From Deltaproteobacteria bacterium (GTDB lineage: Bacteria > Desulfobacterota > Desulfobaccia > Desulfobaccales > 0-14-0-80-60-11), in NCBI GenBank assembly GCA_030018495.1, contig JASEFS010000010.1, positions 1-64,000 of the forward strand: a DNA stretch of 64,000 bases, in the 5' to 3' direction. The notes below the pieces were generated by a model, which saw only the letters and a list, made by a program, of their open reading frames with translations, was not told the DNA's origin and did no database searches. Shown here in pieces: positions 11,491 to 21,658 of the stretch. Numbering within the stretch: the first letter of the stretch is position 1; each line of letters begins with the position of its first letter. A program made the position numbers and the translations under genes.

Positions 11491-12823
<1,333 letters not shown>

Positions 12824-12839
12824 GCTGAGGAGTCGGACC

Positions 12840-12902
12840 ATGGCCATGCAATTGCTGACGCTGTCCCTGTACCTGATTTCGTCGGGCTGGCTGCTGAGAT
12901 GA
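12840..12902 (+). CDS. Tiny hydrophobic ORF (20 aa) after nifH
   Basis: ATG 12840 sits 7 nt after a strong GAGGAG (12827-12832). The 20-codon ORF encodes a hydrophobic peptide (core LLTLSLYLISSGWLL) able to span or sit in a membrane. It lies in the nifH-nifI1 spacer. No homolog is recognised; it may be a real small protein or a fortuitous ORF. Confidence 0.35.
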   Translation: MAMQLLTLSLYLISSGWLLR

Positions 12903-12964
12903 CCCGGCAGGTCGCCAGGGTCTCCGTGAGATAAGGCGAGCCCATAACGGCAGGAGAAGGAATC

Positions 12965-13090
12965 ATGAGTTTCATCAAGATGTGGACTAAAGCTAAAGGT
13001 TGGCTGGCGACGTTCCTTACGGAACAGGCGGAAATGTCGGCCAAAGCGGAGCTATTCCTGGAAGAACTCCCCTGGAGGACAAAGACATGA
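12965..13090 (+). CDS. Small ORF (41 aa) coupled to nifI1
   Basis: ATG 12965 is preceded by GGAGAAGG at ideal spacing. The 41-residue product has a Trp/Lys-rich N-terminal half (FIKMWTKAKGWLATFL) and an acidic amphipathic helix after it. Its TGA (13088-13090) overlaps the nifI1 ATG at 13087 in an ATGA junction, suggesting translational coupling. The strong SD and coupling argue that it is translated. Function unknown; a role near the NifI regulators or as a coupling leader is only inference. Confidence 0.55.
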   Translation: MSFIKMWTKAKGWLATFLTEQAEMSAKAELFLEELPWRTKT

Positions 13091-13440
13091 TCATGATCAG
13101 AAGCATAGTGCGGCCGGAGAAGGTGGACGTGGTCCTGGCCGCCCTGATGGAAGCGGGGTTTCCCGCGGTCACCAAAATGGGCGTGGTGGGTCGGGGCAAG
13201 CAGCGGGGCATCAAGATCGGGGAGATCACCTATGACGAAATCCCCAAGGAGCTGCTCCTCATGGTGGTCAACGACGGCGACAAGGACTTTGTCATCAAGA
13301 CCGTTCTCAAAGCGGCCCGCAGCGGTGATAAAGGCGCTTACGGCGACGGCAAGATCTTTGTCTCGCCGGTGGAGGAAGTCTACACCATCAGCTCCGGCAT
13401 CAAGGAAAGCGGCGGGGAGCTTGCCGAGGTGAAGCCATGA
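13087..13440 (+). CDS. nifI1: PII-family nitrogenase regulator NifI1
   Basis: A 117-residue PII-like protein (MIMIRSIVRPEKVD...). In methanogens and other anaerobes NifI1 and NifI2 form a hetero-oligomer that binds NifDK and switches nitrogenase off after ammonium addition, relieved by 2-oxoglutarate and ATP. ATG 13087 has GGAGG (about 13074-13078) and overlaps the small ORF; ATG 13093 is an alternative. The PII signature MGVVGRGKQRG and DGKIFVSPVEEVYTI are present. The stop overlaps the nifI2 start (ATGA). Confidence 0.95.
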   Translation: MIMIRSIVRPEKVDVVLAALMEAGFPAVTKMGVVGRGKQRGIKIGEITYDEIPKELLLMVVNDGDKDFVIKTVLKAARSGDKGAYGDGKIFVSPVEEVYTISSGIKESGGELAEVKP

Positions 13441-13817
13441 AAGAGATCATGGCCATCGTACGCATCAACATGATGAACAAGACCAAGAAGGCCCTGGCGG
13501 AGGCGGGCATCTCCTCCATCACGGCCAGGGACACCCTGGGCCGGGGCAAGGGTTTGGTGGACCTGAGCCTGCTGGAAGGTGCGGAAAAGGGCTATGAGGA
13601 AGCCGTAGCCCAGTTGGGCCAGAGCCAGCGGCTCATTCCCAAGCGGGTCTTTTTTGTGGTGGTGCCGGACAAACTGGTCACCAAGGCGGTGCAAACCATC
13701 ATTGCAGTGAACCAGACCGGCAAATCCGGTGACGGCAAAATCTTCGTCCTGCCGGTGCTGGACTCCATCCGAGTGCGTACCGGGGAAAACGGCGAGGCGG
13801 TGTTAGACGAAGCGTAG
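13437..13817 (+). CDS. nifI2: PII-family nitrogenase regulator NifI2
   Basis: A 126-residue PII paralog starting KEIMAIVRINMMNKTK, partner of NifI1 in post-translational control of nitrogenase. It has the usual longer region between beta strands 2 and 3 (LLEGAEKGYEEAVAQL) and ends with the GDGKIFVLPVLDSIRVRTGE signature. Four-nt overlap with nifI1 supports equimolar synthesis. The location between nifH and nifD is diagnostic of this clade of nif operons. Confidence 0.95.
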   Translation: MKEIMAIVRINMMNKTKKALAEAGISSITARDTLGRGKGLVDLSLLEGAEKGYEEAVAQLGQSQRLIPKRVFFVVVPDKLVTKAVQTIIAVNQTGKSGDGKIFVLPVLDSIRVRTGENGEAVLDEA

Positions 13818-13892: not shown

Positions 13893-15548
13893 ATGGCCAC
13901 ATTGACACCAGAAGACCTTGGCTCCCTGGTCCTGGATATCGGAGCTGATGAAGCAAAAAAGGAGCTGGTCGGTAAATATCCCACCAAGGTGGCCCGCAAG
14001 CGCGCCAAGCAGATCGTCGCCAACCAGGTGGAGCCGGACCTGACGGTGCCGGAAATCCAGTCCAACGTGCGGACGGTTCCCGGCCTTATCTCGCAGCGTG
14101 GCTGTACTTATGCGGGCTGCAAAGGCGTGGTGCTGGGCCCCACCCGGGACATTTTGAACCTCACCCACGGTCCCATCGGTTGCGGCTTCTACAGTTGGCT
14201 GACCCGGCGTAATCAAACCAGGCCCAAGGGTCCGGAAGACCACAATTTTATGACCTACTGCTTCTCCACAGACATGCAGGACGAGCAGATCATCTTCGGC
14301 GGCGAGAAGAAGCTGAAGCAGGCCATCCAGGAGGCTTACGACATCTTCAAGCCCAAGGCCATCGGCATCTTTGCCACCTGCCCGGTGGGCCTAATAGGCG
14401 ACGACGTGCACGCCGTAGCCCGGGAGATGAAGGAAAAGCTGGGAATCAACGTCTTCGGCTTCAGTTGCGAGGGCTACAAAGGGGTCAGCCAGTCGGCGGG
14501 ACACCACATCGCCAACAACGGCGTCTTCACTCACATCGTGGGTCTGGACGACACCGAGCCGGCAGGCGAATTCAAGATAAATATGCTGGGGGAATACAAC
14601 ATCGGCGGCGACGCCTTCGAGATTGAGCGGCTCTTCGAGGACATCGGGGTCACCCTGGTCTCCAGCTTCAGCGGCAACTCCAGCTACGATCAATTTGCCA
14701 ATTCGCATACTGCGGACCTGAACCTGATCATGTGCCACCGCTCCATCAACTATGTGGCCGAGATGATGGAAAAAAAATTCGGCATCCCCTGGCTCAAGGT
14801 GAACTTTATCGGGGCTGGGGCTACCGCCAAGTCGCTCAGGAAGATAGCCACCTACTTTGAAAACCCGGAGCTGACGGCCAAGGTGGAGGAGGTCGTCGCC
14901 CGGGAGCTGCCGGCGGTGGAAGCGGTGCGGGAAGAGGTGAAGTCGCGGTGCGCCGGCAAGCGGGCCATGCTCTTTGTGGGCGGTTCCCGGGCTCACCATT
15001 ACCAGGAGCTTTTCCGGGAAATTGGCATGGAGATCATCGCCGCAGGCTACGAGTTCGCTCACCGGGACGACTACGAAGGCCGCCGGGTGCTGCCTAACCT
15101 CAAGGTGGACGCCGATAGCCGCAACATTGAAGAGTTGCAGGTGGAAGCGGACCCGGCGCGGTTCCGCCCCCGGCTGGATGCGGCCGGCATCGCCCGGCTG
15201 GAGCAGGAGGGCATCAAGCTCAGCGAATACCAGGGGATGATGGCCGACATGAAAAACGGCGCCCTGGTGATCGACGACATCAGCCAGTACGAAACCGAGA
15301 AGCTCATTGAAATCTACCGGCCCGACATTATCTGCGCCGGCATTAAGGAAAAATTCGCCGTCCAGAAGAGCGGCATACCCATGAAGCAGTTGCATAGTTA
15401 CGACTCCGGCGGTCCCTATGCGGGCTTTCAGGGGGCCATCAACTTCTGGCGGGAAATTGACCGCCTGGTCAACAGCAAGGTCTGGAAATACCTGCAGGCG
15501 CCCTGGCAGGAGCACCCGGAGCTGGCGGCGAAATATGTCTGGGAATGA
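13893..15548 (+). CDS. nifD: Nitrogenase molybdenum-iron protein alpha chain
   Basis: A 551-residue MoFe alpha subunit carrying FeMo-co and half of the P-cluster. Start ATG 13893 follows GGAGAGAG; the frame from 13860 lacks an SD. P-cluster and cofactor regions are visible: GCTYAGCKGVVLGP, THGPIGCGFY, FATCPVGLIGDD, SFSGNSSYDQ and the homocitrate/FeMo-co His in MKQLHSYDSGGPYAGFQG. It contains the roughly 50-residue insertion (about 390-450, around DSRNIEELQVEADPARF) seen in clostridial, Chlorobium and sulfate-reducer NifD proteins. A short hairpin-prone spacer of about 75 bp precedes it. Confidence 0.98.
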   Translation: MATLTPEDLGSLVLDIGADEAKKELVGKYPTKVARKRAKQIVANQVEPDLTVPEIQSNVRTVPGLISQRGCTYAGCKGVVLGPTRDILNLTHGPIGCGFYSWLTRRNQTRPKGPEDHNFMTYCFSTDMQDEQIIFGGEKKLKQAIQEAYDIFKPKAIGIFATCPVGLIGDDVHAVAREMKEKLGINVFGFSCEGYKGVSQSAGHHIANNGVFTHIVGLDDTEPAGEFKINMLGEYNIGGDAFEIERLFEDIGVTLVSSFSGNSSYDQFANSHTADLNLIMCHRSINYVAEMMEKKFGIPWLKVNFIGAGATAKSLRKIATYFENPELTAKVEEVVARELPAVEAVREEVKSRCAGKRAMLFVGGSRAHHYQELFREIGMEIIAAGYEFAHRDDYEGRRVLPNLKVDADSRNIEELQVEADPARFRPRLDAAGIARLEQEGIKLSEYQGMMADMKNGALVIDDISQYETEKLIEIYRPDIICAGIKEKFAVQKSGIPMKQLHSYDSGGPYAGFQGAINFWREIDRLVNSKVWKYLQAPWQEHPELAAKYVWE

Positions 15549-17073: not shown

Positions 17074-17379
17074 ATGGAAAAACCTGAGCATCATATCTTC
17101 GTGTGCATGAGTTTCCGGGGCCTGGAGCCCAAGGGCAAGTGCCTCAAGAAAAACGCTCCGGACCTCCTGGGTTATCTGGAGTCGGAATTGGCCGACCGGG
17201 GCTTGGAAAACGTCATGGTCTCCACCACGGGCTGCCTGAAGCTCTGCGACCAGGGACCGGTTTTGCTGGTCTACCCGGAAGGTTACTGGTACGCCGGGGT
17301 GGAGGGCGAAGACGCCATCGACGCCATCCTGGATAGCCTGGAAAATGGCGGCCCGGCGAAGGACTATCTGGTGGATTAA
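17074..17379 (+). CDS. Thioredoxin-like 2Fe-2S ferredoxin of the nif operon
   Basis: A 101-residue thioredoxin-fold 2Fe-2S ferredoxin. The four ligand cysteines are C11, C23, C54 and C58 (FVCMSF, GKCLK, TTGCLKLC). Homologs such as the Clostridium pasteurianum 2Fe-2S ferredoxin and Azotobacter FdI-linked proteins occur in nif clusters and have been linked to electron transfer to, or interaction with, nitrogenase. ATG 17074 has AAGGA upstream. Its place between nifK and nifE supports a nitrogenase-specific electron transfer or protective role. Confidence 0.88.
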   Translation: MEKPEHHIFVCMSFRGLEPKGKCLKKNAPDLLGYLESELADRGLENVMVSTTGCLKLCDQGPVLLVYPEGYWYAGVEGEDAIDAILDSLENGGPAKDYLVD

Positions 17380-20383: not shown

Positions 20384-21658
20384 ATGAGAACCATGCGGGA
20401 GTTGAATCGGCATCCCTGCTTCAATATGGGGGCAAAGAGCGAGTGTGGCCGGGTGCACCTTCCGGTGGCCCCGAAGTGCAACATTCTCTGCAACTACTGC
20501 AATCGGAAGTTTGACTGCGTCAACGAATCCCGGCCCGGGGTTACCAGTGCGGTGCTGCCGCCGGCCCAGGCTATTGCTTACTTGGAGCGGGTGCTGGAGG
20601 CCGAGCCCCGCATCGCCGTGGCCGGTATTGCCGGCCCGGGGGATCCTTTTGCCAACCCACGGGAGACCATGGAGATCTTGCGGCTGATCCGTCGCCGGTT
20701 CCCGGAGCTCTTGCTCTGCCTGGCCAGCAACGGCCTGGGGCTGCCCCCGTATCTGGATGAGCTGGCTGAGCACCAAGTGTCTCATGTGACGGTCACCGTC
20801 AACGCCGTGGACCCGGATATCGGGACCAAGATTTACAGCTGGGTCCGGGACGGCAAGCAGGTCCATCGAGGTCGGAAGGCCGCCGAAGTCCTGCTGAGTC
20901 GTCAGTTGAAGGCCATTGCCGGACTGAAGGATAGGGGGATGGTGGTCAAAGTCAATACAATCGTTATCCCTGGCATTAACGATCGGCACGTGGAAGCGGT
21001 GGCCAGGAAGATGAAAGAGTTGCGCGTGGACTTGCTCAACTGCATGCCGGTCTATCCCAACGCGGATACGCCTTTCGGGCACCTGCACGAGCCCGGACCC
21101 GAGCAGATGGCTGAGATTCGGGCGGAGGCCGAGGAGTTTGTGCCACAGATGCGCCACTGCACCCGATGCCGGGCCGATGCCGTGGGCCTGCTGAACGAAG
21201 ACCGTACTGAGGAATTGCGCGATTGTCTCTCGGCTTGCAGTCAGTTGCCTCCCCCCATGGACGAAACCCGGCCTTATGTGGCCGTGGCTACCCGGGAAGG
21301 CGCCCTGGTCAATCTCCACCTGGGAGAAGCCGGTTCCTTTCAGATTTGGGGTCCCAATGGCCGGGACTTCCGGCTCCTGGAAGAACGCCCGGCCCCGCCC
21401 GCCGGCGGCGGCGACCATCGCTGGTGGGCGTTGGCGGAAATCCTCAAGGACTGCCGGGCGGTGCTGGTGAGCGCCATTGGCGAAACTCCAAAAGCGATTC
21501 TCACCGAAGCCGGTACCCTGCCGCTGGAAATGTCCGGCCTCATCGAGATGGGCCTGCAGGCCGTTTATGAGGGCAATACCGTCTCTTTTCTCAAGGCCCG
21601 CCGTGGCGGCCTGGCCAAAGGCTGCCAGGCTAAAGGACTGGGAAGCGGCTGCGGGTAA
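20384..21658 (+). CDS. nifB: Nitrogenase cofactor biosynthesis protein NifB
   Basis: 424 residues. An N-terminal radical-SAM domain with the CxxxCxxC motif (CNILCNYC, about residues 28-35) makes the 8Fe-9S-C NifB-co core by carbide insertion. HPCFN at the start and the additional NifB cysteines (MRHCTRCRADAVG, about 260) are present. Residues about 300-410 form a NifX/NafY-like domain (YVAVATREGALVNLHLGEA), so this is the fused architecture. ATG 20384 follows AGGA-type sequence. It is the last intact nif gene. Confidence 0.97.
   Translation: MRTMRELNRHPCFNMGAKSECGRVHLPVAPKCNILCNYCNRKFDCVNESRPGVTSAVLPPAQAIAYLERVLEAEPRIAVAGIAGPGDPFANPRETMEILRLIRRRFPELLLCLASNGLGLPPYLDELAEHQVSHVTVTVNAVDPDIGTKIYSWVRDGKQVHRGRKAAEVLLSRQLKAIAGLKDRGMVVKVNTIVIPGINDRHVEAVARKMKELRVDLLNCMPVYPNADTPFGHLHEPGPEQMAEIRAEAEEFVPQMRHCTRCRADAVGLLNEDRTEELRDCLSACSQLPPPMDETRPYVAVATREGALVNLHLGEAGSFQIWGPNGRDFRLLEERPAPPAGGGDHRWWALAEILKDCRAVLVSAIGETPKAILTEAGTLPLEMSGLIEMGLQAVYEGNTVSFLKARRGGLAKGCQAKGLGSGCG

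Follow-up and report, generated by a model that had tools for sequence, protein, structure and literature searches.

A probable small gene of a catalogued, uncharacterised family overlaps nifI1 in the nifH-nifI1 spacer of a deltaproteobacterial nif operon

As described in the accessible part of the source, the NifI1,2 complex blocks the NifH site on NifDK, and 2-oxoglutarate and ATP reverse this block (PMC9765008). The control by NifI1 and NifI2 is presented there as a switch made of two proteins, and for the methanogen operon nifHI1I2DKXEN no gene is named between nifH and nifI1 in the same part of the source (PMC9765008). The nif operon examined here shares with this switch-off system the PII-family members nifI1 and nifI2 in their usual order. 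In contrast to the methanogen operon, however, it contains two small open reading frames, ORF1 and ORF2, between nifH and nifI1.

The operon is part of a stretch of 64,000 nucleotides, called the window in the following. Its genes are arranged in the order nifH, nifI1, nifI2, nifD, nifK, an ORF of ferredoxin size, nifE, nifN and nifB. Family matches underlie the naming of nifH, of the PII genes and of members of the nitrogenase-component family; the other names are presumed by us from gene order. The features relevant to the spacer are as follows:

11947..11961, + strand: match to a sigma-54-type promoter (TGGCAC-N5-TTGC) ahead of nifH, from which the operon is probably transcribed
11999..12823, + strand: nifH (PF00142, 2.9e-126), stop codon at 12821-12823
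12824..13086, + strand: nifH-nifI1 spacer of 263 nt, which contains the whole of ORF1 and, except for its last codons, ORF2
12840..12902, + strand: ORF1, 20 aa, hydrophobic, preceded by the SD sequence GAGGAG, by its position the counterpart of a microprotein of the order
12965..13090, + strand: ORF2, 41 aa, NCBIfam NF052407 (NOVOEXAE family)
13070..13078, + strand: P-W-R codons of ORF2 (CCC TGG AGG), which also carry the GGAGG SD of nifI1
13087..13440, + strand: nifI1 (PII family; PF00543, 5e-20), ATGA overlap with ORF2
13437..13817, + strand: nifI2 (PII family), ATGA overlap with nifI1
13893..15548, + strand: nifD, first gene past the putatively coupled cassette

Direct reading and translation of the sequence confirmed the two small frames of the preliminary description, each of which begins with ATG and is led by an SD. 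The product of ORF1 is MAMQLLTLSLYLISSGWLLR (20 aa) and that of ORF2 is MSFIKMWTKAKGWLATFLTEQAEMSAKAELFLEELPWRTKT (41 aa); the SD upstream of ORF2 is AGGAGAAGG. The stop codon of ORF2 (13088-13090) and the start of nifI1 at 13087 together form the ATGA overlap. The motif TGGCAC-N5-TTGC, which corresponds to the sigma-54-type consensus, has two matches on the forward strand of the 64-kb window (11947 and 42827) and none on the reverse strand. Judged from the sequence, the match at 11947 is likely the driver of the nif operon.

Two further genes of the operon deserve mention. An ORF of about 101 aa at 17074-17379, between nifK and nifE, resembles a small ferredoxin by eye and has no Pfam match at E 0.001; its place is kept in eight of nine relatives compared, and the contig of the ninth stops short of the site. 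The nifB-like gene at 20384-21658 is of the radical SAM type and carries a Nitro_FeMo-Co domain (PF02579) at its C-terminal end.

Frames of this kind do arise by chance. The 263-nt spacer was shuffled 5000 times with its dinucleotides preserved, and frames that start with ATG and have an SD were counted. One or more such frames of 20 or more aa were present in 20.9% of the shuffles and two in 1.6%; a frame of 41 or more aa was present in 5.5%, and one of this length that also forms the ATGA overlap in 1.3%. These percentages make the sequence statistics alone suggestive, and it is conservation that decides. A structured RNA, riboswitch or leader attenuator in the spacer was considered and rejected, since no Rfam family reached its gathering score and the spacer RNA folds more poorly than its shuffles (z +1.63). 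A simple scan detected no promoter or terminator inside the spacer; its three matches were all located outside.

ORF2 is a member of an already catalogued but uncharacterised family. It matches the NCBIfam model NF052407, the 'NOVOEXAE family nitrogen cycling protein', with 88.1 bits (E 2.3e-25; cut-off 70 bits) and covers this model of 40 positions in full length (1-40/40), and its relative in another genome, G007, scores 90.2 bits. The neighbourhood of ORF2, with nifH upstream and nifI1 overlapping, fits the nitrogen-cycle setting given in the name of the family. A Pfam match is absent, nothing better than E 0.098 was obtained among the PHROGs, and there was no match to solved structures, either by sequence or by PDB fold. 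The NF052407 match and the equal-length relative bear out the earlier proposal of a small gene coupled to nifI1 via ATGA, and we consider it highly probable that ORF2 is a real, expressed protein gene.

Judged by the look of the name, NOVOEXAE is probably a code of the FESNov catalogue, which comprises gene families from uncultivated taxa (PMC10849945). According to the accessible part of this source, all FESNov families reportedly passed dN/dS as well as coding or expression filters, and uncharacterised families of 52, 144, 48, 80 and 165 aa are shown in its Fig. 2b beside nifH-nifI1-nifI2-nifDK (PMC10849945). ORF2, as a member of NF052407, shares this setting with at least one Fig. 2b family (PMC10849945), and we infer that NOVOEXAE is among the five; the family of 52 aa might just as well correspond to ORF1, whose G021 version has this length. 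The word NOVOEXAE itself had no text match in the searched literature, which lacks most subscription journals. For small ORFs in nif operons, the matches listed, as far as their text is accessible, contained nothing on the nifH-nifI1 junction.

Conservation at the amino acid level, proposed as a check in the preliminary description, was indeed found for ORF2. The relative in G007 has 41 aa with 49% identity, the same start, the same ATGA overlap and no indels, and G007 also has the nifI1 SD inside the P-W-R codons. Of the 126 nt, 38 are different between the two copies. Comparison of the two spacers by blastn aligned 59 nt in the 3' half of ORF2 and 23 nt around its SD and start; the matches elsewhere are short pieces next to nifH. 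Between these two sequences the dN/dS of ORF2 is 0.36, which is the lowest among the six frames, with a reverse frame near to it at 0.40. By part, the value is 0.13 for the first 19 codons and 0.53 for the remainder, where synonymous change is low. The P-W-R end may be conserved partly because the nifI1 SD sits within its codons and contributes to the constraint. Conservative exchanges are more frequent than when these 38 changes are scattered at random (P 0.010-0.016 if stops are included, P 0.034-0.043 for simulations free of stops), and the middle of the protein retains the motifs E-x-A-E-M-S-A and E-L-F-L-E. The coding evidence from two sequences is moderate, and the curated family adds weight to it. 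For ORF2 the prediction is a single helix, about 30 residues long and followed by a short tail, P-W-R (mean pLDDT 77.4, from two sequences only); the amphipathicity of this helix is no greater than that of shuffles (P 0.34 and 0.41).

The distribution of ORF2 is narrow. In its own genome there is one copy, at the nifH-nifI1 spacer (search up to E 10). Within the phylum, NF052407 was detected in two of 395 genomes, i.e. the window genome and G007, which are also the two carriers among the 22 genomes of the window's family, while nifI1 was found (E 1e-20) in 78 of 395, the same number of genomes as in the NF052407 search. A closer set of 148 genomes includes 28 with nifI1, of which ten belong to the window's order (eight to the window's family and two to a second family), and two of these ten nif-bearing genomes possess ORF2. 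This implies that most NifI control runs without ORF2. When named genomes were scanned with an alignment of the two ORF2 copies, for which two narrow patterns were used, one locus was returned, JAGVAH010000085.1 of Syntrophobacterales bacterium DeMMO6_13, which is identical with G007. In the tree of Nif proteins, G007 is placed beside G012, a genome devoid of both ORFs, whereas the window branches in another place, with a support of 0.363 at the node joining the window; the tree was calculated by FastTree only, contains some partial rows and does not strictly follow the families. From this placement, the distribution of ORF2 is patchy. By eye, the two carriers have no distinguishing residues in common in NifI1 or NifI2. 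In G001, the sole other member of the genus returned (84% complete), nifI1 was not found, and nitrogen fixation may vary within the genus.

A second small frame is more widespread in the order. Eight of the ten nif-bearing genomes have an SD-led hydrophobic frame that begins 12-18 nt past nifH (computed for seven genomes and determined by eye for G018, the nifH of which is broken). A clear family of hydrophobic microproteins of 39-65 aa is present in six of the ten (G011, G016, G017, G018, G021 and G022). For its 27-codon core, aligned on a common W, the similarity seen over the 15 pairs is attained in 0-2.8% of simulations (in at most 4.2% of those that are stop-free). The profile of the six members, A4, finds them with E 1e-19 to 2e-25, all in the nifH-nifI1 spacer. 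Over the 148 genomes only these six score below E 1e-18, the next match being at 0.0039; at a lax E of 1 there is some match in 75 of the 148 genomes, mostly at chance level. AlphaFold predicts one helix for the G016 microprotein (residues 3-33, mean pLDDT 69.7); the microprotein of the order is a probable one-span membrane protein. The family has no match in Pfam or NCBIfam (two members searched) or in PHROGs (one member), and the four matches to solved structures look like chance, the best (0.0087) being a natterin-like protein. The locus in G018 is irregular in itself: its nifH matches residues 1-201 only before it runs off frame, its last nifH residues are read in a different frame, and its nifK is split over two frames, which points to assembly errors or a broken nif cluster.

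It had been argued that the spacer is otherwise hard to explain, and this argument turned out to be weak, since other junctions of the nif operon in the order reach 298 nt and 12 of 34 nifH-nifI1 spacers from outside the order measure 73-411 nt and contain no hydrophobic frame. These 34 spacers stem from 33 genomes and represent the best-matching loci, not all 78 genomes with nifI1 (L029 and L078 were dropped, as they have no nifH). The other 22 are 15-51 nt long. Counting frames of 18 or more aa with ATG, GTG or TTG as start, an SD-led frame occurs in one of the 34 (L068, hydrophilic) and a hydrophobic one (KD19 ≥ 1.4) in none. The four spacers of f41, a different family within the phylum (L030, L075, L076 and L077), 308-411 nt in length, are without SD-led frames of 18 or more aa. 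In N. vulgaris, where the nif operon is carried on a plasmid, the spacer measures 128 nt, and the incomplete PLSDB table lists no gene for it.

Elsewhere between the genes of the operon, frames of 20 or more aa show no conservation other than short matches (the operons of G017 and G018 being partial). Matches between genomes at these other junctions extend over 14-17 aa, and in one case both partners come from the nifK-ferredoxin junction (G007 and G021); one match of 30 aa connects ORF1 of G011 with a nifD-nifK frame of G016. Repeat-like pieces, for instance those with NPPFPKGG frames, lengthen intergenic regions of the operon in the order. They are found in the nifH-nifI1 spacers L004 and L009 and in the nifD-nifK and nifK-ferredoxin spacers of G007 and G016.

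ORF1 and ORF2 probably belong to the nitrogenase control unit. In the proposed mechanism, ORF2 would be transcribed from the sigma-54-type promoter ahead of nifH. Because ORF2, nifI1 and nifI2 overlap by ATGA successively, they might be translated as a coupled row, so that the peptide would be made along with NifI1 and NifI2. Most likely it would then assist, as an accessory, the complex of NifI1 and NifI2 that blocks the NifH docking site on NifDK when nitrogen is plentiful. This accessory role in switch-off is proposed solely because of the coupling and the position, and we rate it slightly below an even chance; the broader statement, that ORF2 acts on NifI1/NifI2 or on nitrogenase, may be given the same somewhat reserved rating. 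The link to the nitrogenase regulators made in the preliminary description thus holds for position and overlap only.

The peptide might also be inert and ORF2 a translation-control device that sets the output of nifI1 and nifI2 relative to nifH, as had likewise been suggested. The ATGA overlap and the nifI1 SD inside the ORF2 codons are consistent with this, a tandem of coupled frames would make the output of nifI depend on translation further upstream, and the low synonymous change in the second half of ORF2 fits as well. However, such a device is not needed in homologous operons, where the nifH-nifI1 spacer measures 14-51 nt and where the five short spacers of G012 and L012-L015 provide nifI1 with an ordinary SD. 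In addition, the spacer RNA is without excess structure, and the conserved E-x-A-E-M-S-A and E-L-F-L-E would be left without a role, which makes this explanation unlikely. Alternatively, ORF2, together with ORF1 in other genomes, could function elsewhere than on NifI, e.g. on NifH or on a partner in electron transfer or in the membrane. In eight genomes ORF1 comes 12-18 nt after nifH and is led by an SD of its own; it is hydrophobic and has one predicted helix in G016, and ORF2 is located downstream of nifH, too; but it is nifI1 and not nifH that ORF2 overlaps, and neither Pfam and NCBIfam nor the solved structures contain a homologue of ORF1 or ORF2 with a known partner. We regard this possibility as rather doubtful. 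It is very improbable that the small genes form a selfish or horizontally moved cassette without a role in nitrogen fixation. The patchy presence of ORF2 would agree with such a cassette, but its dS between the two carriers amounts to 0.86, no lower than for the neighbouring genes (nifI1 0.44, nifH 0.63), which argues against a recent transfer between the two genomes, and neither the plasmid nor the viral collection contained a match. By eye, there is no repeat or mobile gene in the spacer of the window either, although that of G007 has repeat-like sequence.

ORF1 of the window is a separate question: it may be no more than a frame that arose by chance or by decay, the microprotein proper having been lost here, and we give this about even chances. 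Against the profile A4 it reaches 0.6 bits (0.8 bits for the G007 copy), both like shuffles, of which 421 of the 965 listed scored 0 or more. It has 20 aa only, in comparison with 39-65 aa in the family, and its hydrophobicity is attained by 6.4% of the 613 ATG ORFs of the window; Pfam and NCBIfam contain no match. As to a hydrophobic span with a basic tail, ORF1 has a KD19 of 1.45 but 20 aa and one basic residue, which speaks neither for nor against membership. Moreover, the order includes G024, with a spacer of 138 nt but without an SD-led hydrophobic frame, and G012, with a spacer of 14 nt. On the other hand, ORF1 begins 16 nt after nifH and therefore within the 12-18 nt of the family, it possesses a strong SD, it is hydrophobic, and its G-W can be aligned by eye with the G-W of the family. 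It may be an eroded copy of the microprotein of the order, and that it is a functional peptide we consider a tentative reading, appreciably short of even chances. Thus, the notion of a hydrophobic small protein stands for six of the ten genomes of the order (eight by position and hydrophobicity), whereas the copy in the window, with its 20 aa, is unrecognisable to the profile and has no alignable homologue.

It is conceivable, but quite improbable, that the nifH-nifI1 junction serves in this order as a dedicated slot for microproteins of nitrogenase control, in which ORF1, as a one-span membrane peptide, tethers and the coupled ORF2 tunes NifI1/NifI2, resulting in a membrane-linked switch-off. 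If true, this would differ from the NifI system as known to date, which consists of two proteins. Should a third peptide be coupled to it in translation, nitrogenase switch-off would gain a new handle. ORF2 gives a family catalogued without a function a concrete place, overlapping nifI1, and the hydrophobic microprotein of the order could be added to the annotation.

Small proteins that cooperate with PII-like partners have been described in other organisms. In Methanosarcina mazei, sP36 (61 aa) works with the PII-like GlnK1 at the membrane (AmtB1), as stated in the accessible part of the source (PMC10714827). It resembles the role proposed for ORF2 in that it is a small nitrogen-control protein with a PII-like partner, but it differs in having another partner, in being longer and in being archaeal, and the likeness is one of description (PMC10714827). 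PirA of cyanobacteria (51 aa) is reported, likewise in the part of the source that is accessible, to be a small PII-binding protein (PMC7760959). Its likeness to ORF2, again by description only, is that of a very small partner of a PII-family protein, with the difference that PII binding is reported for PirA and guessed for ORF2 (PMC7760959). Both sP36 and PirA may therefore be seen as analogies for ORF2 rather than as relatives.
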